DNA from: a virus | Length of the DNA: 26,577 bases | IMG/VR virus record: IMGVR_UViG_3300009705_004212 | Coordinates: 1-26,577 of that record | Reading direction: 5' to 3' (one strand) | Shown here: piece after piece, positions 661 through 18,901 of the stretch | Layout of the letters: each line of letters begins with the position of its first letter | How positions within the stretch are numbered: position 1 is the stretch's first letter | The notes under the pieces: model-generated | Databases searched by the model: none | What the model was told of the DNA's origin: nothing | Seen by the model: only the letters and a program-made list of their open reading frames with translations | Made by a program: the position numbers and the translations under genes

Positions 661-3600
661 ATGAAAAAAGAAAAAAGATTAACTTTATTAAGAAAGTATT
701 TTAAAAAGTCTGCAACGGATAAGTCATCTGATGAGCCTAGGGTTTCCCCTGTTATAGTCAGGCTAATTACAGATCTGCTAGAGCTTCATGAAGAGGGCGC
801 TCTTTCGGAGATTAGCGATGAGGTCTCAGGGTCAGTTATTGAAAACCTATTGGGGGCATACGAAAGGCTTAGCGCCGGAAGAGATGATTCTGAGGGGTTG
901 CTTGTAGAAGATTACGACGTGCTTGATACAAGTGGAGACCGGATTAGTGACGACAGGTATGTGCCGGAAGATGAAGATGACTGGCTTGCGGAGGAGCATG
1001 AGCCTGGGGCTACGGTACAGACTACCATGCAGGAGGACTATGAAAACGTTCTGTCGGACTATGATGAAGTCATCTATACGATAATAGAACAATCATTTGG
1101 CGAGGGAGATATAGAGACTGGCATTGAAAATATGATATCAGAGGATAAAGACTTTGTCTCATCCTATGTATCAAGTGCTTTCTCAACCCTAAGCAGGGCT
1201 CTCGATAGTCTGGATAAACATTTTCCAACGGATTCGTTTTCAGGTAGCAGTGATAAGGAGCTGGCCAGCAGAATAAAGTACATAGAAACGTACAGGGAAG
1301 AGGTAAGGGGTATGTACAAAAACCTTAGTGGCCTTTCCGGACTTGGCAAAACCATAGAGAATGCGAATGACGCTATATCAATCCTGAGAGGCTATAGAGA
1401 GGGCCGAAGCGGTGGGACAGTTGAGGAGCCCGCTGGTGATCCTGGTGGCGAAACAATGATATTTGGACCAGACCGGCAGCCGGGGAAGCCCGGTCGGAGA
1501 AAGATTCGCCCCCTCGACGACCCTGCGGGGAAGGCCTCCAAGCGTAATAAGAAGTATTTGTTAACAGAGGAAGTTGCGCCATCCCGTGTTATGAATGATC
1601 ATTCTAATATCGATCAAGAAGACTTAACGACTGATTGGTCAGTTGTTTCCAGCCAGCTATCTTCATTTTCTGAAGGATTTTTTACAGATGTTGATTCCGA
1701 TATTTTAAATGGCGTAGAAGATAGGATGACCATAGAGCAGAAAGAGCTGCTTATTAGAGATAATTTTGAAAAGTTTGCTACAAATCTTTCTAGTGAGATA
1801 ACTTTAATAAGGAATAGGCTGATAGATACTTCAATTGGGTTTGGTGGACGCATATCTAATGAGGCTAACATCAGCAAGGCAATATCTAGCTTGAATAACC
1901 TATATGCATCCTTATGGGTTTGGGATCAGATAAATAAGATAAGAATAAAGAGTATGGACATAGGGTATGTAAATACGATCAAGATATCTGGAACATACAG
2001 TATCATCAGGCACCTTAAGTCTGTCGGAAGATCCACGCTAAGGAATTTCGTGGAGAGCGCAATTATATGCTCAAGAACAAAGCTTATGTTTAGGAAGGTT
2101 AGGAATGACGAGGGAGCTTATGACGAAGACTTAACCGCTAGGTTTATGCAAGAGGTTGTAAATCAAATTATAAATAAGATGTCTGCCGCCATTAAAGATG
2201 GGAGTAATAAAGAAAATATAATTAAGTATATAGGTACGATTCCGATAAACCAAACCTTGTTGCGAATAAATGCCAAAAATATTATAGATGTAGAATCCGG
2301 GGTTGTCGCATCAAAGACTGTTGTTAATAACAAGTATACAAAGTGCCCTGTGTGTAGCAAACAAATACTTTGGGGATTAAATGGTGGTGGTTCAGATAAG
2401 GAGAAAATCGATAGGTTTAAGGAAAAAAATCTTGGTAATTTTAAGTATGTTCAATATTCCTTTTATAGGGCCGATGGATCTCTAATAGATATAAATGACT
2501 TAATCGAACCTTCAAGCACCTTAATTAGTGACGCCGATGCAGACGCCGATGCCGATCACGGATGGAAGTCTAAGGAGTATTCCGGAACAAAAACGTGGAT
2601 AGAGATAAGCAATATGATCTACTCTGGAGACAAGAGTGACCACGCAGAGGGCCTGAGAAGAAGGTCCGAAGTGCTTGCTTACTTTGGCGGAGAGCCGCTG
2701 AATAATGGAGAGGAGGTAAGAATAAGGGACTCTAGGTTTGGCTGCCCATATGATTCTGAGAATGACCACTGTGGACTTGCGGTTTCTGAAGACGGAGATG
2801 AGTTTATGTTCGGATGGAATGGATCCGGCAGGACAGTTATTTCTGGTGATAAAAGCAAAGGGCCTACTAGACTTGATTTTTATGGCAAGAGAGATGGAGA
2901 TAATTATTATACAAACTCAATAACCGAAGGCAATGAGCAGAACGCGAACCATATGGCTAAAAAATATGGAAATGGTGGATATAAGTTTTCAAAGCATTGC
3001 TTCTCATGCCCATGCAGAATTACTCAAGACGTTGCAAAAGATGATGGCAAATTTTTATATAAATATAATTATATGGCGATACCGTACTTTGGAGTGCACT
3101 CTGCAGATAATATATCTAATTATGAATTATGGAAAGAGAAGTCTCCAATAGGGCTTCCGACAGCCCCCGATGGTAGTGTTGATGATACAATTGGTGATAA
3201 TACGGTTGGGTATGTTATTTGCGGTGCATCAACATCTCTGTCATCTTTCTCCAGAAGTGGACAGCTCTCTATCAGCTCTCTTTTTCAGTCGATATATGAA
3301 GCAGAGGGGTCTGGAGACAAACCAAGGGGAACTGCGAAGAGGCTTTCTGAATGGCTAATATCAAATGGCGTTGACCCATTTGATATATATGAGTTTGTAC
3401 ATACTGGAAAATACCACTCTGTGGATTTAGAGATTCCTCCAGGGGAAGGGGAGGCATCGGACCCGATTCCTGCCGCATCTTTGCCAGAGGGTTTTTTCTC
3501 ATCACCGGCTGACCGAGGATATACAGATCTTTATATGAGTGAGCAAGACCCTAAGCCGCCCGCCTTGGATGAGAAGGGAACTGTGGTACGAAGAAGGGGC

Positions 3601-6600
3601 GGTGTCGACAACAAGGAAAGTGCGCTTATACGCAGAAGTAGGAGAAGAAAAAACAATCTTAAAATTATAAACATTACATCTTCTTTGGATATAAATAAGT
3701 CAAAGAGGTTGCACAAAATATCGGAGCTTTTGTCTACAGCTATGGCCAAGTCGATTGACTCTGATATATATGACATCATCGGAGGCTTATCCCTATCATG
3801 TCCTAATGGACATAAGTTTTCCATATCTCAGAGTATTAACTTTGCGAATAATAATATGGCAAGAAAGATAAGGGGGATGACGAGGATAGGTGAATATAGT
3901 TCTGAACATAATGCTCTAATGGCAAATGGATCATTTGAAAATTATAAAAAATTAGGAATTATAAAGGAGGTTTCTGATTTCGATAACCATCAGCAATATG
4001 ATAAATGGACGGTATCATCATCGTCAAAAAGAGACCCGTCAAGGCTATCGTTCCTTGGGCCGGATGGTAGGTATTATAAAATAAGTGAAGTGTGGAACCC
4101 TGGAAAGGGTGGCTTTTTGGCTACAGCCTGGAACACTAGATCTACCGCAAGGGCTCCTTACTCATTTACTGATCCGATAGTTGAATTTAGAATGAACTAT
4201 GAGCTATCAGACAAAGAGTATGTTAAATCAAAGTCAACCACAAAGGGAGAGGATGATTCTGGAGAGTCCTCGGCTTTAGAAGGGGAGATGGTAAGATCAG
4301 TTGAGGAATCTGTTGGTGGAGAGGAAACAAACGTCACCGATGATGCAAGGACAATAGACGAGCAACTTTCAGAGGGCTATCATCTGGTTCAGCCAATACC
4401 TCATCCAAGCAGGCTTTCTGCGAACGCAGATACCGTTAGGATCCAGGTAAAGCAGCTCTCTATATCTGTTGAGTCTATTTTAAATGTAATAGCCCAATGG
4501 AGGGATAACGCAGTCGACTCTTCGTTTAACATGGCTTTTGCATATCCAGAAAACATTTGTTGCACTGAGGATGACTACCGGACTATAAAGACGAGCATTC
4601 CGGAGATAATAGACATTGCTGTTGGGCCAGAAGACCTGGAGAAAACCTCCCTACAGGTATTTGAAGATCTGAAATCAAACTTGTTTGATTCATATCTAGA
4701 TGGTGTTGATTTGAACAGAATTCATTTAATGATTCCAAATTATACATATGAGTATGTATCAAATATGATATATGAAAATATATCGAGTTCGTTAAAATCT
4801 GTAATTGGGTTAGAATATAATGATGAAATCAGACTAGATACAAAGTCCGAAGCCTTTTCTGACATAGTCAACATACTCTTTCCGTTAAAAAGATTTAGCC
4901 CGGTGTCTCAAAAGGCAAGTTACGGCAAGGAGTTAGTGAGGAAGGAGTTTATAGGGAAGTTATACATGGTTGCTTCTGCAATATATTTATCCAGAGCTAT
5001 GGAGAAATACGCAAATAATTACCATAATCCGGCGTCATCAAATTATGTTGGATATAGATTGCCATTAGACTTAGACGCAAACTCTGCTTTTAATGTGTCA
5101 AAAGAGCAGATATCTGGATTTCCGTCAGAAGTCATAAGGGATCTGGAACGCGGAACAGATCAGCTCCTAGACGCAAATGGAGGCATTGTCGGGGAAATAC
5201 AATATGATGTGGATGAGTCTGGGGCTATTTTGAATGAGGATGAAATATTAAGAAAGATTAAATCTGCATATCACTTCTCAATAAAAGAAGATTTGGAAAA
5301 TATAGATAGCATAGTCTTCTCCAGGGATGTTTTAGACGCCGCTAGGGAGTATATATCAAACATGGCGATCGACAAGATCATAGAACCCATATCTAATACG
5401 GACAGTGTTTTGCAATATATGGATGAAAACGGCTATGTTAAAATAGATGATGGAAGTTATTCATATGAAGACAGGATTAGGGCAATATCAGGCATACTAG
5501 ATCAGGCTAGGGCGATTGAGGATAAGGGGGTTAGGTCTCATAAAGCGGGAGCTAAGAACAAACAGCTTATGTCATTTTTGACAGAACATGGTATAGACCC
5601 GGTTTTCTATAGGAATAAAACAATCTTTGATGCAATGACCTCTTCCTCTCAGGTTGCAACAGTAAGCTTTAGGCCATACATGGATGAGTGGGAGGGACCT
5701 AGCGGTCAGGATTATGTTCAGCCATATAAGCCTCAAATTCCATCTTCTTTAAAAATTATGTTTGCGTACCCAACAAAAGAAACTGTTGCCGCCCAGAAGG
5801 ACTTTTTTAACAAAGATACGATGACTATTAGGGCCTTCATGAGATATCCGATAATATCTCTGCCATCACACAACAGTGGGTTTTTAGTATCGCAGAAACG
5901 AGGAACTGAGGTTGGCCATTTTGTTGTGTCAAGGCTAAGGCCGCTGGGCTCTAGGACGGCAAAGATAGAGGGCCAAGAGCTTCAGGATTTTATATCTTCA
6001 AAAAGGTTGTACGAAGTTGATGCATATACAGAAATGCTGGATAATATGGGCTTTAATATATGGTTTGTCTCTCAACTAGAATACCCCGCGAAAGGGGTTT
6101 CTTCCAAAACATATTCACCATTATTTGGGCATCTTGATAGCGAGGGGAGCCCCAAAAAAGATCTCAAGGCAAACATTTCAAGCATCTTGGATCATCCAGC
6201 AACAGAGGCTGGGGTGGATGAAAATGGAAATGATTTTTACATAAATTCATTATTCAATTATGATAGCAGGTTGTGGCAAATTGGAAGGGTTGGGAAATCT
6301 AGTGCCACTGGCGCTGTATTTTCGTATCCAATATCTGAAGAAAATCTTATGAGGTATGATAGTCCAATCGGAGTGATCCTTCCTTTTGATCTATCACCAT
6401 CGTCATCAAACATGGGTACGAACCAGGAAAGGAATCTGGCCAAAGTGTTTAGGAATGCGCTTCCTATAGCAGATATAAACTTTATTGTCGAGATTGACAA
6501 TATGCCAATAGATATAGGGTTTCTTGTCCAAAAAACGAAGGGGGCGTTTCTGAAAGGCCTTTCTGATATAGATAAAAGTTATAATTCATATAGGGCAGGG

Positions 6601-7818
6601 GTCAATAAAATAAAGTCTAATAGCTCTACTAGTGCGGAAGAAAAGTCTCAATTGGAAATGGACGAAGCGATGAAGTTAAATGATAGAGCCGCTGGAACTG
6701 TAAATTCAATATCTAGGCTTAATTATTCAGTAAGAACATCTGAGTCTGCATCCAAAAAGCGTTCGGCGCCAGCAATTCCCGGCAGCGATCCTTACGTGTC
6801 TGCTATTTCAAAGCTGGATACTCCAATTTGGAGATCGTCAATTAGGCCGTCAATACCCCTCGTGGATCCTCAGACTGCGTACAGGTTGGTAAGCGGAGAA
6901 CAATACAGTATTTCTGGACTAGTGCCAGAGCTAACGTCCGAAGAAAAGAACGCCCTTTATAAGTTTATTGTTGATGTATATGGATTAAACGTAATTGGAA
7001 AAGTATTTTCGCCGCTAATGGAGCGAGGTGTTGGCTCGACGTTATCACCAGAAGAGACGCTGGACTTAGAAAATGTTGTGAAGGATTATGCCGAAAATAA
7101 ACTTGGATTCGAGCTTACCGATGATGAGTATATGGGTCGCAAAAAAGTAAAGGGCGCCAGGGATAAGGGAACTCCGGCAGAAAGGGTACAGCTTATTTTA
7201 GACAAGCTCAATGCGCTAAGGCCGAATGTGGTCGGCATTGGGAAAAAGACAAGCCTTACAGTTAAGAACAACAACCACCTTGCAAACGTTATGGGAATCG
7301 ATCCTGGAATGTATTACAACCTATCCCAAGAGTCGGCCATATCTTACGTGCCTGTTTCTGTTCCGGTTGAGTTATTTGGACAAGAGTGGAAGAAGGGCTG
7401 GACCCCTATAGATACGAAGACTGTCTTGCAAACTAGAGATGTGCAAAGAGGTTATAGGGTAGACGAAGACGGTAGAAAAATTCCAGTCAGGGATTCGCTT
7501 CTTGCCGGAAGAATTAGCGCCGCAACATTAGATTATTTCCGTGGAACACAGACGGGGGATGTTGCGAGCATAGATCAACATGGCGCAGAGATGTCAAAAG
7601 TTGTTCCTGGCACAGCATCCGGTGTAGAGGGCATTGTCGGATTGGCGACGAAGATGAAGAGGAACTTATTATTACACATGGAAAGAAGACTCAAGGGTTT
7701 GAGCATAGAAAAATTAAGTGAAAAAAATGATTTATTAAATAAAATTTCTTACAGGCGGAGGAGACTCTTTAGTATAATTAAGACCAATGGGCATGGTGCC
7801 GATTACAAACTTAAATAA
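661..7818 (+). CDS. Giant 2385-residue phage protein with Cys-pair zinc-site candidates
   Basis: A single uninterrupted frame codes for 2385 residues, so the gene is clearly real, but I do not recognise the family. Residues about 55-115 are very acidic. Residues about 250-300 form a Gly/Pro/Arg-rich linker, and residues 624-632 are an Asp-Ala alternation (DADADADAD). Metal-site candidates are C562-x2-C565 (CPVC), C695 with H703/C704, H779-C780-x2-C783-x-C785, and C1047-PNG-H1051. A basic patch lies near residue 985 (RRRG and RRSRRRK). No signal peptide, long membrane segment or polymerase-type DxDGD motif is seen. The sequence before the ATG has no good Shine-Dalgarno. Size, position and the N-terminal YFKKSA motif shared with later genes suggest a virion protein, for example an injected or core component. 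This is inference. Confidence 0.9.
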   Translation: MKKEKRLTLLRKYFKKSATDKSSDEPRVSPVIVRLITDLLELHEEGALSEISDEVSGSVIENLLGAYERLSAGRDDSEGLLVEDYDVLDTSGDRISDDRYVPEDEDDWLAEEHEPGATVQTTMQEDYENVLSDYDEVIYTIIEQSFGEGDIETGIENMISEDKDFVSSYVSSAFSTLSRALDSLDKHFPTDSFSGSSDKELASRIKYIETYREEVRGMYKNLSGLSGLGKTIENANDAISILRGYREGRSGGTVEEPAGDPGGETMIFGPDRQPGKPGRRKIRPLDDPAGKASKRNKKYLLTEEVAPSRVMNDHSNIDQEDLTTDWSVVSSQLSSFSEGFFTDVDSDILNGVEDRMTIEQKELLIRDNFEKFATNLSSEITLIRNRLIDTSIGFGGRISNEANISKAISSLNNLYASLWVWDQINKIRIKSMDIGYVNTIKISGTYSIIRHLKSVGRSTLRNFVESAIICSRTKLMFRKVRNDEGAYDEDLTARFMQEVVNQIINKMSAAIKDGSNKENIIKYIGTIPINQTLLRINAKNIIDVESGVVASKTVVNNKYTKCPVCSKQILWGLNGGGSDKEKIDRFKEKNLGNFKYVQYSFYRADGSLIDINDLIEPSSTLISDADADADADHGWKSKEYSGTKTWIEISNMIYSGDKSDHAEGLRRRSEVLAYFGGEPLNNGEEVRIRDSRFGCPYDSENDHCGLAVSEDGDEFMFGWNGSGRTVISGDKSKGPTRLDFYGKRDGDNYYTNSITEGNEQNANHMAKKYGNGGYKFSKHCFSCPCRITQDVAKDDGKFLYKYNYMAIPYFGVHSADNISNYELWKEKSPIGLPTAPDGSVDDTIGDNTVGYVICGASTSLSSFSRSGQLSISSLFQSIYEAEGSGDKPRGTAKRLSEWLISNGVDPFDIYEFVHTGKYHSVDLEIPPGEGEASDPIPAASLPEGFFSSPADRGYTDLYMSEQDPKPPALDEKGTVVRRRGGVDNKESALIRRSRRRKNNLKIINITSSLDINKSKRLHKISELLSTAMAKSIDSDIYDIIGGLSLSCPNGHKFSISQSINFANNNMARKIRGMTRIGEYSSEHNALMANGSFENYKKLGIIKEVSDFDNHQQYDKWTVSSSSKRDPSRLSFLGPDGRYYKISEVWNPGKGGFLATAWNTRSTARAPYSFTDPIVEFRMNYELSDKEYVKSKSTTKGEDDSGESSALEGEMVRSVEESVGGEETNVTDDARTIDEQLSEGYHLVQPIPHPSRLSANADTVRIQVKQLSISVESILNVIAQWRDNAVDSSFNMAFAYPENICCTEDDYRTIKTSIPEIIDIAVGPEDLEKTSLQVFEDLKSNLFDSYLDGVDLNRIHLMIPNYTYEYVSNMIYENISSSLKSVIGLEYNDEIRLDTKSEAFSDIVNILFPLKRFSPVSQKASYGKELVRKEFIGKLYMVASAIYLSRAMEKYANNYHNPASSNYVGYRLPLDLDANSAFNVSKEQISGFPSEVIRDLERGTDQLLDANGGIVGEIQYDVDESGAILNEDEILRKIKSAYHFSIKEDLENIDSIVFSRDVLDAAREYISNMAIDKIIEPISNTDSVLQYMDENGYVKIDDGSYSYEDRIRAISGILDQARAIEDKGVRSHKAGAKNKQLMSFLTEHGIDPVFYRNKTIFDAMTSSSQVATVSFRPYMDEWEGPSGQDYVQPYKPQIPSSLKIMFAYPTKETVAAQKDFFNKDTMTIRAFMRYPIISLPSHNSGFLVSQKRGTEVGHFVVSRLRPLGSRTAKIEGQELQDFISSKRLYEVDAYTEMLDNMGFNIWFVSQLEYPAKGVSSKTYSPLFGHLDSEGSPKKDLKANISSILDHPATEAGVDENGNDFYINSLFNYDSRLWQIGRVGKSSATGAVFSYPISEENLMRYDSPIGVILPFDLSPSSSNMGTNQERNLAKVFRNALPIADINFIVEIDNMPIDIGFLVQKTKGAFLKGLSDIDKSYNSYRAGVNKIKSNSSTSAEEKSQLEMDEAMKLNDRAAGTVNSISRLNYSVRTSESASKKRSAPAIPGSDPYVSAISKLDTPIWRSSIRPSIPLVDPQTAYRLVSGEQYSISGLVPELTSEEKNALYKFIVDVYGLNVIGKVFSPLMERGVGSTLSPEETLDLENVVKDYAENKLGFELTDDEYMGRKKVKGARDKGTPAERVQLILDKLNALRPNVVGIGKKTSLTVKNNNHLANVMGIDPGMYYNLSQESAISYVPVSVPVELFGQEWKKGWTPIDTKTVLQTRDVQRGYRVDEDGRKIPVRDSLLAGRISAATLDYFRGTQTGDVASIDQHGAEMSKVVPGTASGVEGIVGLATKMKRNLLLHMERRLKGLSIEKLSEKNDLLNKISYRRRRLFSIIKTNGHGADYKLK

Positions 7819-8125: not shown

Positions 8126-8599
8126 ATGGTAGGATTTGCTCTTGGATGGATATATGGCCACCTTTTTGAGTGGGCTATACACAAATACGTGCTGCACTCT
8201 AGCCGTTGTAAAAAAAAGAATAATATTTTATCATTTCATTTTTTAGAACATCATTCTAATGCCAGGGCAAATAATTTTACAGACTCATCGTATAGCGGAC
8301 TTCCAGTTAATCGGGATTCTGCAGGAAAGGAGGCCTTATCCTTGCTCTTAGTTCTTATCATACACGCTCCCTTGCTGTATATATCAAAAGGATTCTTTTT
8401 AGCGCTAATGGTTTCTTTAGCCGAATATTATTACAAGCACAGAAAGGCTCATACCAATCCGGAGTGGGCCAGGCATAATCTTTCATGGCACTACGAGCAT
8501 CACATGTGTAAGGATCAAGATTCTAACTTTGGAGTTAGGTCAGACTGGGTAGATGTATTCTTGGGAACAAGAAAATATACAATAAACAATCTAAAATAG
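8126..8599 (+). CDS. Fatty acid hydroxylase / sterol desaturase-like membrane di-iron protein
   Basis: The 157-residue protein carries the histidine clusters of the membrane-bound di-iron fatty acid hydroxylase superfamily: H19-x4-H24, H38-x3-H42-H43, H105-x3-H109 and H122-x2-H125-H126, with a further H117. A hydrophobic hairpin at about residues 70-100 separates the two halves, and an N-terminal hydrophobic stretch (residues 1-18) precedes the first cluster. This is the arrangement expected for an enzyme whose iron centre faces the cytoplasm, with substrate in the membrane. Members hydroxylate or desaturate fatty acids, sterols or carotenoids using oxygen; the substrate here is unknown. The protein is shorter than most members (often over 200 residues) and close to a minimal catalytic unit. 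It sits between a small unknown gene and dnaE, so it is a probable auxiliary metabolic gene. Confidence 0.85.
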   Translation: MVGFALGWIYGHLFEWAIHKYVLHSSRCKKKNNILSFHFLEHHSNARANNFTDSSYSGLPVNRDSAGKEALSLLLVLIIHAPLLYISKGFFLALMVSLAEYYYKHRKAHTNPEWARHNLSWHYEHHMCKDQDSNFGVRSDWVDVFLGTRKYTINNLK

Positions 8600-11600: not shown

Positions 11601-11858
11601 ATCGAAGTAATAGTTAATTCAAAAATAAAAGAATTTAAAATAAAGAATGGGAAGAATATAGGTAGGAAGTTTGCAAAGTATCTGGTGGAGGACGTTGATG
11701 GAGAAACTTGCGATTTGACATTGTGGGCAGATCAATACGATAGACTTAGAGCGCGGCTTGTAGACGGTATACCAATAAAGGCAATTTGTAGAATAAATGA
11801 GTATATGGGGCAGAAAAGCCTCAGCCTTGTTGAAATAGAAAGGATATATGGAGGATGA
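8610..11858 (+). CDS. dnaE: DNA polymerase III alpha subunit (DnaE-type) with apparently intact PHP domain
   Basis: The 1082-residue replicative polymerase starts with a PHP domain (about 1-270). Its metal-ligand pattern looks complete: H10-x-H12, D44-H45, E70, H84, C139, D213-x-H215. The C-family palm has PDIDTDF with catalytic D429 and D431, the GPGRGSAGGS motif ahead of it, and the third aspartate D581 in KMDILGLKT. The thumb/fingers region includes the FNKSHS segment. An EKEVLGR motif near 950 and a C-terminal OB-fold-like region (about 980-1082) complete the DnaE order. Unusual details: the usual ALYRPGPM region reads AMGRPSCSAQ, and the MGKK-type motif reads ITKQKGKD. I see no clear QxxLF clamp-binding peptide. 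The start has an AGGAG ribosome binding site. It should copy the phage genome, possibly proofreading with its own PHP domain. Confidence 0.96.
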   Translation: MEKSPFVSLHNHTEQGSPLDGMNNIDELFNQAKSLGHKAIAITDHGTLTAHYDAWKASKNTGVKLIPGMEAYFAPSLEDRKSYHLVLIPKNHNGYKNILRLNYESYKNQVSGYMGKKTPRITWEHLEEFNEDVICLTACSNGPIAKALIADEEENEAISRLIRLKSIFADRLYLELQPHSLKTDDGKVDQVRLNNALIKYAKIHNVKYVVTSDAHYLDANHAKYHDMMLAIKDKKAVDDPDRFRYGVQDMYLKNHDEITEFFGEEIATEAMRNSSDIADMCDEPEYLEPKGPRLPRFPIESESDYGEFKKWTGSGKDDVDEDKAFLRFRCMKSFKDKFSELNISDKTKYWSRVKYELSILEARSFSSYMLIVSDYINWAKQNNIPVGPGRGSAGGSLVSFLIGITSVNPMEFGLLFERFHNKEKESFPDIDTDFADPSKVKEYLKGKYGEDRVASISNWSTLSPKVIIKDVARSLRLDGDKSTAFKIANHITSIMPDARSIEDAMEVSKEFKSYMLRYPKLYDYASKLQGLTRNWSVHAAGIVISDEPLYNFVPLRIDESGHLVTQWEKTRCEENGLIKMDILGLKTLTVIDNVFKNIKNTKDIEISIEDIPIDDKETYEMISSGNNAGIFQLEASLSPLCQKIKPVNVRMISDINAMGRPSCSAQDRKNYIQRRFGIEDVSYRHSTLEKALGGTYGVSLYEEGMMAIAKDCAGWDLNQADALRKITKQKGKDPGLVLRTEASFLKDCMSKTGMSYEQAKDIWDNEIIPFGLYGFNKSHSILYSHISVYTAWLKRHYPTEFMCALLNSEDPNSDKAQEYINECGSMSISILAPDINHSDGNYSIKSGSEIVTGLSAIKGLGGAAIKEMIGNKPYDSFSEFLVKNSGRTVGKTAIQSLSKSGAFSTFGRTRMDIFENYQKYRTKLRSAVAKDKDIDDVVLPEYNEEWDRKKLLLFEKEVLGRTISGSLHEVFDGFFTKSYSVTPLKNISLTNTGDKIKIEVIVNSKIKEFKIKNGKNIGRKFAKYLVEDVDGETCDLTLWADQYDRLRARLVDGIPIKAICRINEYMGQKSLSLVEIERIYGG

Positions 11859-11859
11859 T

Positions 11860-12351
11860 ATGATTATATGCCCAAAGTGTGATTTTGAGGTCTCGTACAA
11901 AATGAGGCATTCTATAGAGCTAAATTCATGCCCATCCTGTGGCAAGGTTCTTTTGAATAATATAGAGATTAGGAGAATATCTTCGATAAGCTCAAGGTTA
12001 AATTCTCAAGAATTTTCTGAAAAAATGGGAGACTCGCTGATATCTGATGTATCATTTTTTATATATTTTCATATAGTCAAAGCCCTATCTAAAGATAATG
12101 GTGAGCAGAGCAATCCGGTCATTAAAGATAGCATAGATGACTCTGAAGGTTTGGATGACGATGATGATGATGAACTAGATCTTAAGGCAATAAGGGATGA
12201 AGTTGAGACGGAAGTGCTAATCAAAGAAGACGCTCACCCACTTGATGATGATGAGTTGGAAGCCGACAGAGTCTCTAGGCTCAGAAGTTTGGCCAGAAAA
12301 CAAAAAATGGCTTCAAAAAACCCTCTAAAGGTAAAGAGAATATCTAGTTAA
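11860..12351 (+). CDS. N-terminal zinc-ribbon protein with acidic middle
   Basis: This protein has 163 residues from the ATG at 11860, one base after the dnaE stop. I prefer this start because GGAGG at 11850-11854 lies 5 bases upstream; the in-frame ATG at 11848 overlaps dnaE and sits inside that signal. The N-terminus is a compact Cys4 zinc ribbon: C4-x2-C7, then C24-x2-C27 (CPKC and CPSCG). A long acidic segment (about residues 95-135, with a run of five Asp) is followed by a basic C-terminus (KVKRISS). Zinc ribbons of this type are usual in phage DNA- or RNA-binding accessory factors, but this one is not assignable. Tight linkage with dnaE and SSB suggests a role in replication or transcription. 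Confidence 0.8.
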   Translation: MIICPKCDFEVSYKMRHSIELNSCPSCGKVLLNNIEIRRISSISSRLNSQEFSEKMGDSLISDVSFFIYFHIVKALSKDNGEQSNPVIKDSIDDSEGLDDDDDDELDLKAIRDEVETEVLIKEDAHPLDDDELEADRVSRLRSLARKQKMASKNPLKVKRISS

Positions 12352-12658: not shown

Positions 12659-13181
12659 TGAATTGATATCTATTGATAATTTTTCTATAGAAAATATAGA
12701 TATAACAGAGATAAATCGCTTGGCTACTTTTTTGCCAAAAAACGGTATAATTGATGTGAACATAGCGGAACGATGCTTGGTGTACACAGTAGAGGGCCAG
12801 AACCTATGCCAAGAGAAAATAGTTCAATTGGAAAGATGGATTGGTATAAAAGAATCTGATAAAAATAAGGCATGGTCCACAGCAGCGTTGGAAAGGGCGA
12901 AGGCCGGTGGGCTAAAAACCGTAAAGGAAAAGGAATGGTTTGCACAATCTGATGAAGATTATATAGCGGCGTACAATAACTTAGCACTTGCTAAGGCGTC
13001 GAAGAAATGGTTTGAAAGTAAGGCTGGTTACTTTAGTACATGGCACTATGCATTAAAGACATTTTTAAGAAGAGATTATTCTTTAGAGAGGTTGGGAGAT
13101 AGTTCAAATATTAGTTTTGAGTCATCGCATGAAAATAGTCATGCAGATGATGATATGTGTGGAGATATTGGTTGGAAGTAG
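12645..13181 (+). CDS. Helical protein, possibly a UvsY-like recombination mediator
   Basis: The 178-residue protein starts inside the end of the previous gene, behind a GAGGGA ribosome binding site. It is mostly helical. A central Ala/Lys-rich region (ALERAKAGGLKTVKEKEWF) is followed by a long helix rich in Ala, Lys, Trp and aromatic residues (residues about 105-145) and an acidic Ser/Asp/His tail. The helix, basic middle, helix plan and the position next to a phage SSB, in a genome that also has RecA and RuvC, recall UvsY-type mediators that load the recombinase onto SSB-coated DNA. No diagnostic motif proves this, so the functional assignment is a guess from plan and context. It is about 40 residues longer than T4 UvsY. 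Confidence 0.75.
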   Translation: MKSLSELISIDNFSIENIDITEINRLATFLPKNGIIDVNIAERCLVYTVEGQNLCQEKIVQLERWIGIKESDKNKAWSTAALERAKAGGLKTVKEKEWFAQSDEDYIAAYNNLALAKASKKWFESKAGYFSTWHYALKTFLRRDYSLERLGDSSNISFESSHENSHADDDMCGDIGWK

Positions 13182-14525: not shown

Positions 14526-16175
<1,650 letters not shown>

Positions 16176-16196
16176 AAATAAAATTGGAGTTTATTG

Positions 16197-17348
16197 ATGC
16201 CTAAAATTATAACACAGAGTGAAGCAGAGAGAGAGATTATAAAGTTTTTTGGAGATGACACTGTATTTATGAATGGAGATATATCATCGATAGGAACATA
16301 TGATGTCATAAGCACTGGAAGTGAAACTCTTGATTTCGCGATTGGAATAGGGGGAATTCCAAGAGGGAGGGTAACTCAGCTAGCAGGCCAGGAGAGCTCT
16401 GGAAAGACGATGCTCGCCCTGTCATGTATAAAAAGTTATCTAGATGAAAACCCAGATAACACGGCATTATTTATAGATGCCGAATATACATATGATCCAG
16501 AGTGGGCGTCATCTCAGGGGGTTGATGTCTCTAGGGTTATGGTGATAAAGACTAATGATGCAAAAAAAATATTCGAAGGGCTGATCGGAAAAGTATCTGT
16601 AAATAGCGCTACAAAGAAGGTCTCAAAGAAGATGAAGGGTATATTGGATTACATAATAGACGGCGAAGATCCAAGGTTTAAAAATCTTGGAATAATAGTC
16701 CTAGATTCAATTGCGGTTTTAAACACCCCGCTTGAGATGGCGGCTGACATTGGAAAGGCCAATATGGCCCCAATACCGAGATTTTTATCAACAGAGTTAA
16801 AAAAATTAACACCAGTTATAGCGGAGGCTAATGTAGCCTTCGTGGGAATAAATCAAGTGAGGGTGAATCTCGGCCAGATGTTTGGAGATCCCACAACATC
16901 TCCTGGGGGAAAGGCACTCAAGCACGCGTGCAGCCTTATGATTAATATGGCTCCAATATTTAGATCTGAAACTGTCATAAACGACAGCTCTGGAGATCGG
17001 GTTGGACACATGGTTCGCGCAAAGATTGGGAAAAACAAAGTTGGAACCCCATTCAGAAAGGCAGAGTATAGCGTGAAGTATTCAGAAGGAATTGTGAATC
17101 AAAATATAGAGGCTTTGGATCTGGGAGTTAAGTTTTCCATAGTTGAAAGGCCAAATAACAGAAATTATATTATATATGGTGAGAAAATACTTGGAAGAGA
17201 TAATGCCATTAAGTATTTGGATGAAAATACAGAAGTGGCAAATAGAATTTTCTCTGAAGTAAGGGGGATATACTTGGGTAGGAGCTATATTAGTGCCCCA
17301 TCACATGAAGAGCCTGATGAAGAAAACCCATTAGTTGCTTCGCTTTAA
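16197..17348 (+). CDS. recA: RecA-family recombinase
   Basis: The 383-residue protein starts at the ATG at 16197, with GGAG 7 bases upstream; a TTG three bases earlier is less likely. The RecA core has Walker A GQESSGKT (residues 64-71), the catalytic glutamate E96 in FIDAEYTYDPEWA, Walker B in LGIIVLDSIAVL, and the DNA-binding loop 2 region GINQVRVNLGQMFGDPTTSPGG. About 25 extra residues rich in Lys (VSKKMKGILDYI and neighbours) are inserted just before Walker B. The C-terminus is acidic (EEPDEENP), like the regulatory tail of cellular RecA. It should form the nucleoprotein filament for strand exchange, working with SSB and RuvC nearby. The sequence is closer to cellular RecA than to T4 UvsX. 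Confidence 0.96.
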   Translation: MPKIITQSEAEREIIKFFGDDTVFMNGDISSIGTYDVISTGSETLDFAIGIGGIPRGRVTQLAGQESSGKTMLALSCIKSYLDENPDNTALFIDAEYTYDPEWASSQGVDVSRVMVIKTNDAKKIFEGLIGKVSVNSATKKVSKKMKGILDYIIDGEDPRFKNLGIIVLDSIAVLNTPLEMAADIGKANMAPIPRFLSTELKKLTPVIAEANVAFVGINQVRVNLGQMFGDPTTSPGGKALKHACSLMINMAPIFRSETVINDSSGDRVGHMVRAKIGKNKVGTPFRKAEYSVKYSEGIVNQNIEALDLGVKFSIVERPNNRNYIIYGEKILGRDNAIKYLDENTEVANRIFSEVRGIYLGRSYISAPSHEEPDEENPLVASL

Positions 17349-17363
17349 TAAGGACGATAAGAA

Positions 17364-17723
17364 ATGCTTGTAAATTGTAATGTCGGATGTAAGCTTGGCA
17401 TAACCACTACTATTGCAAAATTAGATATGGATACCAATCAGGCTATATGCATGGAGTGTGGGTATGAGATTTTAAATATGTCTTACTTCTCCAAACAAAA
17501 TATGAAAAATAGTGGAGACATTATAAGCAAAAGGAAAAATAGGGCTTTTTCTTTTCAGTGTATTACTTGTGAAACAATCGTCGAAACAATGTATTCAGAT
17601 GATGGTATAATTGGGGTTGGATGTGATAACGGAGATTGTTCTTTTAAGATTCCATCGCCAATGATCGAAGCCTTAAAGCATAACAGAAACTATAAAGAAG
17701 AGGGCACCCAAGAGGATGAGTAA
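17364..17723 (+). CDS. Protein with two Cys4 zinc sites, upstream of the primase
   Basis: The 119-residue protein has eight cysteines in two regular sets: C5-x3-C9 with C29-x2-C32, and C66-x2-C69 with C87-x4-C92. Each set fits a zinc ribbon. A short basic stretch (SKRKNR, residues 55-60) separates them and the tail is acidic. It starts behind AGGA, and its last codons overlap the primase start by 8 bases, so the two are translationally coupled. The following primase lacks its own zinc-binding domain, so this protein could supply template recognition in trans. That is inference: the spacing is not the CHC2 pattern of DnaG. A transcription accessory factor is the alternative. Confidence 0.8.
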   Translation: MLVNCNVGCKLGITTTIAKLDMDTNQAICMECGYEILNMSYFSKQNMKNSGDIISKRKNRAFSFQCITCETIVETMYSDDGIIGVGCDNGDCSFKIPSPMIEALKHNRNYKEEGTQEDE

Positions 17724-18465
17724 TTATCTTGAAATTTTGGCTAACATATGTCATTCAAATTTGAAAAACTCAAAGAAGTCTATGGAATATTTGAGAACCG
17801 GCAGGGGTATTAGCGATGATATTATAAAATTATATAGCATCGGGTATTTTCCTCAGAACCTTGAAAAAATATACGACTATATACCAGAAGAGTTTTTAAT
17901 AAAACTAAATATATCTAGAAACAGGGCGGGCAGCCAGTTTTCGGATTATTTCTCTTTGGTCTTCCCAATAACCTCAGAGTACGGCAAAGTTGTCGGAATA
18001 AGCGGCAGAACATTAATTGATGAAGAGCAAAGAAGTTTTATAAAAATACCAAAGTATAAAAATAGTTCATATAAAAAATCAAATTATTTTTTCGGATTAG
18101 ACAAAGCAAAAGAACATATTGTTAGGGAAAATTCAGTTTATGTAGTCGAAGGATATTTTGACCAGATATCAATGTTTCAGTATGGTATAAAAAATTGTGT
18201 AGCGATATGTGGAACATCTTTTTCAAAAAATCATTTTATAAAGTTATCTAGATATTGTGATAAAATAATATTTATTTTAGACAATGATGATGCGGGAATG
18301 GATTCTTCATTGAGAATATATGATAAATATATTAATAAAGGAATTAAAATTAGGTTAAAAAATATTCCTAGTCGGTATAAAGATGTTGATGAGTATTTTG
18401 CTAATCATGGTAATTCAAAAGAATCTTTTTTAAAAGATGCAGTAAGTTACGTTCCAAATTTTTAA
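17716..18465 (+). CDS. dnaG: DnaG-type primase catalytic core without zinc or helicase domains
   Basis: The 249-residue protein matches the RNA-polymerase core of bacterial DnaG. An N-terminal subdomain has SLVFPITSEYGKVVGISGR, followed by a TOPRIM domain with the acidic triad E145 (VVEGYFD), D189 and D191 (ILDNDDAG). ICGTSFS matches the conserved AxxGT turn. Typical DnaG is about 600 residues; the N-terminal CHC2 zinc domain and the C-terminal helicase-binding domain are both absent. It should make RNA primers for the DnaE polymerase encoded upstream. Template recognition may be provided by the adjacent Cys4 protein, with which the gene overlaps. No replicative helicase is in the window. The sequence becomes very Asn/Lys/Ile-rich toward the end. 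Confidence 0.9.
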   Translation: MSNYLEILANICHSNLKNSKKSMEYLRTGRGISDDIIKLYSIGYFPQNLEKIYDYIPEEFLIKLNISRNRAGSQFSDYFSLVFPITSEYGKVVGISGRTLIDEEQRSFIKIPKYKNSSYKKSNYFFGLDKAKEHIVRENSVYVVEGYFDQISMFQYGIKNCVAICGTSFSKNHFIKLSRYCDKIIFILDNDDAGMDSSLRIYDKYINKGIKIRLKNIPSRYKDVDEYFANHGNSKESFLKDAVSYVPNF

Positions 18466-18475
18466 AGATAGTAGT

Positions 18476-18901
18476 ATGGGAAACAGTAAGTCATATCAGT
18501 ACAAAATCGTAGAAATATCCTTTGATCAATCAAAGTTGAATAATTTTTCAACTGAGAGATCCATAGGTAATGTTCTGTCTGATAACCAATTTTCAGAAGA
18601 GATTCAGGAATTGCGAGAAGACCTCTTGGATGAGATTTATTCTATTATAAACGGAAACTATCTAACGGAACATCAGAAGAAAATATTATTTATGAGGCTT
18701 ATGGGGAAGACGCAGAATGATATAGCGGAACATCTTGGCATTACACAATCTGCCGTGCATAAGGCTATGCATGGAAATATAGATTATAAGAATAATAAAA
18801 AAAGATATGGTGGAATAGTTAAAAAATTGAAGAAAATATGTACAACTAATCCTAACATTCAGAGTATTTTAGAAAGAATAGAAGAAGTAAGAAGTATTTA
18901 A
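18476..18901 (+). CDS. Sigma-70 region 4-like HTH protein
   Basis: In this 141-residue protein, residues 63-98 (LTEHQKKILFMRLMGKTQ then NDIAEHLGITQSAVHKAMHG) form a clear helix-turn-helix of the sigma region 4/LuxR type, with the usual 'hit the genes again when growth-permitting' spacing of hydrophobic and Gly positions. A basic segment (YKNNKKRYGGIVKKLKKI) follows. No region 2 is present, so it is not a complete sigma factor. It could be a promoter-recognition adaptor for host polymerase or a DNA-binding regulator. It ends the recombination-priming block, and a promoter lies directly downstream, before the putative virion genes; a role in switching those genes on is attractive but unproven. 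No clear ribosome binding site precedes the ATG. Confidence 0.8.
   Translation: MGNSKSYQYKIVEISFDQSKLNNFSTERSIGNVLSDNQFSEEIQELREDLLDEIYSIINGNYLTEHQKKILFMRLMGKTQNDIAEHLGITQSAVHKAMHGNIDYKNNKKRYGGIVKKLKKICTTNPNIQSILERIEEVRSI

Follow-up and report, generated by a model that had tools for sequence, protein, structure and literature searches.

The window, the whole 26,577-nucleotide stretch of the uncultured virus record IMGVR_UViG_3300009705_004212, encodes a DnaG-type primase that consists of a catalytic core, and the gene just before it encodes a protein with two four-cysteine sites. This arrangement raises the question of where the zinc domain of the primase is to be found. The preliminary description of this DNA had proposed that the two neighbours may form a two-subunit primase with a different zinc fold. 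We therefore examined the core, its neighbour and their relatives in other viral contigs.

The primase core and the protein encoded before it

The 249-aa primase (Table 1) matched the Pfam families DNAG_N (2.1e-16) and Toprim_2 (8.8e-20), and Pfam reported neither a CHC2/zinc domain nor a DnaB-binding domain in it. Among PDB entries it matched RNA polymerase domains from bacterial DnaG proteins, for example residues 110-338 of the A. aeolicus enzyme (2au3, E = 5.5e-28). E145, D189 and D191 were unchanged in 11 of 11 relatives, and the equivalent residues E159, D203 and D205 were kept in a divergent group, clade B. The C-terminus lies about 20 aa past KDVDEYF, the last acidic motif of the TOPRIM domain, indicating that two further regions of bacterial DnaG are missing as well, the remainder of the polymerase domain and the domain that binds the helicase. 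The protein thus holds DNAG_N, TOPRIM, the catalytic Glu and the DxD expected of a DnaG-type catalytic core, as the preliminary description had read it, and has neither the CHC2 domain in cis nor the C-terminal helicase-binding domain of a full bacterial DnaG. Judging from these matches, the 249-aa protein is probably the catalytic part of a DnaG primase whose halves are encoded by separate genes, and it is predicted to synthesize primers.

Table 1 Features of the primase locus (positions in the window)
Feature	Position	Strand	Basis
RecA-like recombinase, gene 5' of the Cys8 gene	16194..17348	+	Pfam RecA 2.5e-53; gene order
Cys8 double-zinc-ribbon protein (predicted), 119 aa; Cys 5, 9, 29, 32 and 66, 69, 87, 92	17364..17723	+	ORF; invariant Cys; AlphaFold2
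8-nt overlap ATGAGTAA of the Cys8 and primase-core genes	17716..17723	+	Sequence; short overlap or gap usual in relatives
DnaG-type primase catalytic core, 249 aa (DNAG_N and TOPRIM)	17716..18465	+	Pfam and PDB matches
E145 codon, TOPRIM glutamate (VEGYFD)	18148..18150	+	Sequence; invariant
D189-N-D191, TOPRIM DxD (LDNDDAG)	18280..18288	+	Sequence; both Asp invariant
Sigma-70 region-4-like HTH protein, 3' of the core	18476..18901	+	Pfam Sigma70_r4_2 2.6e-6; relatives in same order

The preceding gene, which we call Cys8, was confirmed to encode two Cys4 sites (CX3C-X19-CX2C followed by CX2C-X17-CX4C) and to overlap the core gene by eight bases. All eight cysteines were unchanged in 11 relatives (33-44% identity), and in a larger set of 48, seven of the eight showed little or no variation; the second site takes the form of a plain CX2C...CX2C ribbon in clade B. 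AlphaFold2 predicted two units, each of a beta-ribbon and a helix, from the 48 sequences (pLDDT 83), while a model from just 11 sequences was poor (pLDDT 59). The invariant cysteines together with the two-unit fold argue that Cys8 is no chance cluster of cysteines.

No Pfam or PHROG family matched the Cys8 protein of the window at 0.01, the match to Pfam TFIIB (E = 0.017) falling short of this cut-off. When the model was compared with solved structures by Foldseek, the nearest folds were ribbons of the TFIIB/RPB9 type, none of them significant (best 1pft, E = 0.59, probability 0.30), and the single fold match in BFVD was an uncultured-phage protein, A0A6J5RS84. A divergent CHC2 ribbon (PF01807) was ruled out by the missing Pfam match, an hhalign value of 4.9%, and the presence of two all-Cys sites rather than one C-H-C-C site. 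Its sequence predicts the Cys8 protein to be a double zinc ribbon that belongs to a family not yet described and is distinct from the DnaG zinc domain. Another zinc-ribbon protein (167 aa, CPKC ... CPSC) is encoded at 11848-12351 of the window, directly 3' of the DNA polymerase III alpha gene; it weakly matches phrog_4875, as do the Cys8 proteins of clade B.

A standalone CHC2 protein encoded upstream

In viral contigs, the relatives of the core form two groups, both of uncultured large phages: clade A, sharing about 50-60% identity with the window core and including a few members near 43%, and clade B, at 32-38% identity and on contigs of up to 480 kb. Whole records were searched with PF01807 in three sets, and a single match above the curated cut-off was obtained for 6 of 7, for 18 of 21 and for all 19 of 19 records. 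Together the sets comprise 46 distinct records, some of them near-duplicates; 42 were positive, and the four negative ones are fragments with a length of 16-35 kb. One standalone CHC2 gene and one core are present in each of the 42 related records that measure 49 kb or more, and the CHC2 gene always lies upstream, at 20.1-30.7 kb from the core and on its strand. An additional CHC2 match in record G044 lay below the cut-off (E = 0.05). Among the 24 loci read, the CHC2 protein measures 177-212 aa and its C, H, C and C (CPxxxHK ... CFGC) are invariant; elsewhere the open frames are of similar size. It is laid out as a zinc ribbon followed by a C-terminal extension of about 85 aa in a protein of about 180 aa. 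An sbcD-like gene follows the CHC2 gene in the loci read of both clades.

The window record (26.6 kb) stops short of the CHC2 gene, whose presence in this marine phage we infer from the 158.7-kb contig IMGVR_UViG_3300027779_000011, identical to the window at 12,746 of 12,747 and 12,357 of 12,357 bases in the stretches compared. The CHC2 gene of that contig lies about 6.6-7.2 kb before the start of the window, about 24,000 bases from the core. Because the gene is outside the window, it could not be seen when the locus was first described. Of the two-subunit primase proposed then, the division of the enzyme stands; the missing zinc domain is assigned to the distant CHC2 gene of the 42 large records and not to the neighbour with a different zinc fold.

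As would be expected of a split DnaG, the matches of the CHC2 protein and of the core follow one another along shared reference proteins: residues 6-132 and 110-338 of A. aeolicus DnaG, and residues 45-99 and 128-364 of PHROG 6444. The overlap of the two matches in A. aeolicus DnaG led to the idea that the CHC2 extension shares ancestry with the N-terminus of the core, a duplication-and-loss route to the split, which was not supported (hhalign 0.2-0.4%).

We further compared evolutionary rates through partial correlations between pairwise distances, with the other genes as controls and p values from permutation, in 16 genomes of clade A and 19 of clade B. The correlation between core and CHC2 protein was 0.57 in clade A, the top of 28 pairs, and 0.48 in clade B, the second of 36 (p = 0.0005 each). 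It was stable to dropping any one genome (jackknife 0.49-0.65 and 0.44-0.52, respectively), and the adjacent-gene control, CHC2 protein with sbcD product, gave 0.06 and 0.11. These correlations, from which shared phylogeny is removed only in part and among which several other pairs also reach low p, support rather than prove that core and CHC2 protein act together in trans.

The Cys8 gene, its neighbourhood and the competing explanations

The Cys8 gene was found in the same locus for 124 of 131 distinct cores, 41 of 45 in clade A and 83 of 86 in clade B, and at the loci without it the core is always at, or cut by, a contig end. Gaps between the two genes are mostly -41 to +29 nt; other small ORFs interrupt the pair in 4 of 147 clade-B loci (L232, L298, L301 and L302, the last with repeats of a 'HREDGPA' motif protein), and no fusion was seen among the loci. 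No Cys8 relative without a core was found in viral contigs. The 50,697 cultured phage records contained no Cys8 relative, and none was found in GTDB genomes at the sensitivity of the pattern used; a scan of genome contigs with the Cys8 alignment gave no relative. Co-occurrence of the pair in other phages, which the initial proposal had named as a check, therefore holds across both clades, and the homologues apart from primases that would have spoken against it did not appear in these searches.

The surrounding order is ssb-ruvC-groEL-recA-Cys8-core-sigma in clade A and ssb-ruvC-dnaJ-Cys8-core-sigma in clade B, where recA is located elsewhere. Between ruvC and Cys8 the chaperone is thus exchanged, groEL followed by recA in clade A (14526-17348 of the window) for dnaJ in clade B (L106-L122 and relatives; DnaJ confirmed for L122). 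The dnaJ-Cys8 adjacency was interrupted in 0 of 80 clade-B loci, making it at least as tight as Cys8-core, and ssb and ruvC, an unrelated pair, are neighbours in both clades alike; adjacency alone is accordingly no proof of a complex between the Cys8 protein and the core. The interval between the core and the sigma-like gene is often invaded in clade B (36 of 85 gaps exceed 100 nt), while Cys8 and core are rarely split; the invaders in the loci read (L108, L110, L116, L118 and others) are apparently homing-endonuclease-like genes. Elsewhere in the window, a 2,385-aa protein with several Cys pairs (661-7818) had no Pfam match at E 0.01, and a 157-aa protein (8126-8599) has histidine clusters that resemble, by eye only, the motifs of membrane fatty-acid hydroxylases or desaturases.

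We consider it probable that the primase of these phages is a DnaG split into the core and the standalone CHC2 protein encoded 20-31 kb upstream, the two assembling and acting in trans. By analogy with DnaG, T4 and T7, the CHC2 protein would be the half that recognizes the template and finds the start site in trans, and it would hold the 5' end of the primer during polymerisation by the core, as does the zinc domain of DnaG or T4 gp61. Its extension may, with less support, link it to the core or the helicase. The Cys8 protein would be made together with the core as a separate double zinc ribbon and would not replace the CHC2 domain; should it take part in priming, it would most likely be an accessory anchoring the core to single-stranded DNA, to the helicase or to the CHC2 subunit. 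This role is a guess and the weakest part of the best explanation. Only tentatively, then, do we suggest a DnaG-type primase of three subunits, in which the core and a CHC2 protein acting in trans are joined by a double-zinc-ribbon subunit that is obligate, is co-translated and has no counterpart in known primases.

The constant pairing of Cys8 and core can also be read in other ways. That the Cys8 protein replaces the CHC2 domain by a different zinc fold in a two-subunit primase, as first proposed, would agree with the strict adjacency and overlap across two divergent clades, with the absence of Cys8 homologues without a core, and with the correlated rates of Cys8 and core in clade B (0.29, p = 0.0005). 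The correlation is, however, only 0.02 in clade A (p = 0.43), every large record has a canonical CHC2 protein, the profiles of Cys8 and CHC2 do not match (hhalign 4.9%), and phage G has a split core with no match to the Cys8 profile in the two regions examined, those of its CHC2 and core genes; we regard this reading as unlikely. Considerably more credible, if somewhat short of an even chance, is that the working primase is the core with the CHC2 protein and that Cys8 is a mere co-transcribed neighbour with another job, such as a transcription-type zinc ribbon or an accessory of recombination or chaperones. Its nearest, non-significant folds are of the TFIIB/RPB9 type, it directly follows dnaJ in clade B and recA in clade A, and unrelated pairs such as ssb-ruvC adjoin in both clades too; yet Cys8 never occurs without the core, although groEL, recA and dnaJ move around it, and the gene overlap suggests coupled translation.

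Two further explanations concern the CHC2 protein itself. The sbcD-like gene 3' of the CHC2 gene, seen in both clades, makes another CHC2 partner conceivable and counts against the split model, so that the CHC2 protein might serve SbcCD or recombination while the core primes without any CHC2 domain. This is very unlikely given that the rates of the CHC2 protein follow those of the core (0.57/0.48) and not those of sbcD (0.06/0.11), that PF01807 is the primase zinc domain, and that the CHC2 gene of phage G comes after genes for a DnaC-like loader and a helicase. Host DnaG might instead provide the zinc domain, with the phage proteins just modifying priming, since zinc domains of DnaG can act in trans between subunits to regulate primer synthesis, as stated in the title of Corn et al. 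2005, which PMC5204125 and PMC6163395 cite. The phages nevertheless keep their own single CHC2 protein and a family-C polymerase, and four of the largest records also have a DnaB-like helicase, leaving this explanation extremely improbable. At loci L129 and L155-L157, a small CX2C zinc-ribbon gene follows the DnaB-like gene in 4 of 4 cases, and a DnaC-like ATPase gene precedes it in 3 of 4.

Relation to known primases

The split into a CHC2 ribbon and a core is already known, and it also occurs without a Cys8 gene beside the core, as in phage G. The new element here is Cys8, a double-zinc-ribbon partner that is constantly present and fits no curated family. It was present at every intact core locus seen and, if it truly acts in priming, would be a new type of subunit for bacterial-style primases. 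In a broad range of large, uncultured phages the DnaG primase is kept as more than one protein, which offers a natural system for the action of the zinc domain in trans; an annotation that stops at the core gene overlooks half of the enzyme.

According to section 3.4.1 of Iyer et al. 2021 (PMC7824862), a standalone primase-type zinc ribbon tends to occur along with the DnaG-like primases of group 2 jumbo phages. These phages likewise encode the CHC2-type ribbon and the TOPRIM part as separate proteins; they differ in having a family-B polymerase, whereas the phages here have a PHP-containing Pol III alpha and a Cys8 gene directly linked to that of the core. The passages of that section report no Cys8-like partner. 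Our search of the literature on split primases, including those of mycobacteriophage, yielded nothing usable. PF01807 had no match in phages RaK2, GAP32 and 121Q, and the primase of RaK2 reads as a single fused protein.

The closest cultured parallel compared is Bacillus phage G (NC_023719), whose subgroup has Pol III alpha with PHP according to the same source (PMC7824862). As here, both DnaG halves are in separate genes: gp229 is a CHC2 protein of 210 aa and gp419 a TOPRIM core of 235 aa, and the profiles built here detected both (2.8e-8 and 2e-22). Unlike here, the two genes are 154 kb apart, no Cys8 homologue lies beside the core, and the CHC2 gene is located by helicase and loader genes, three genes after the helicase gene, rather than by sbcD. 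The two genes (161481-162113 and 315772-316479 of NC_023719) are both annotated 'DNA primase' with no comment on being halves of one DnaG. Just upstream of the CHC2 gene, gp228 (104 aa) has eight Cys and is unmatched by the Cys8 profile.

Bacterial DnaG, as in A. aeolicus, shares sequence homology with both the CHC2 protein and the core in one polypeptide, whereas the core here ends soon after TOPRIM and lacks both the remaining polymerase domain and the C-terminus that binds the helicase. In T4 gp61 and T7 gp4, the zinc ribbon scans the template and holds the 5' end of the primer (PMC10359460); unlike here, this domain is in cis and has no double-ribbon partner. T4 gp61 consists of zinc and polymerase domains only and contacts the helicase partly via a helix-turn-helix after the zinc ribbon (PMC10359460), a post-ribbon motif to which the C-terminal extension of the CHC2 protein may be a parallel.
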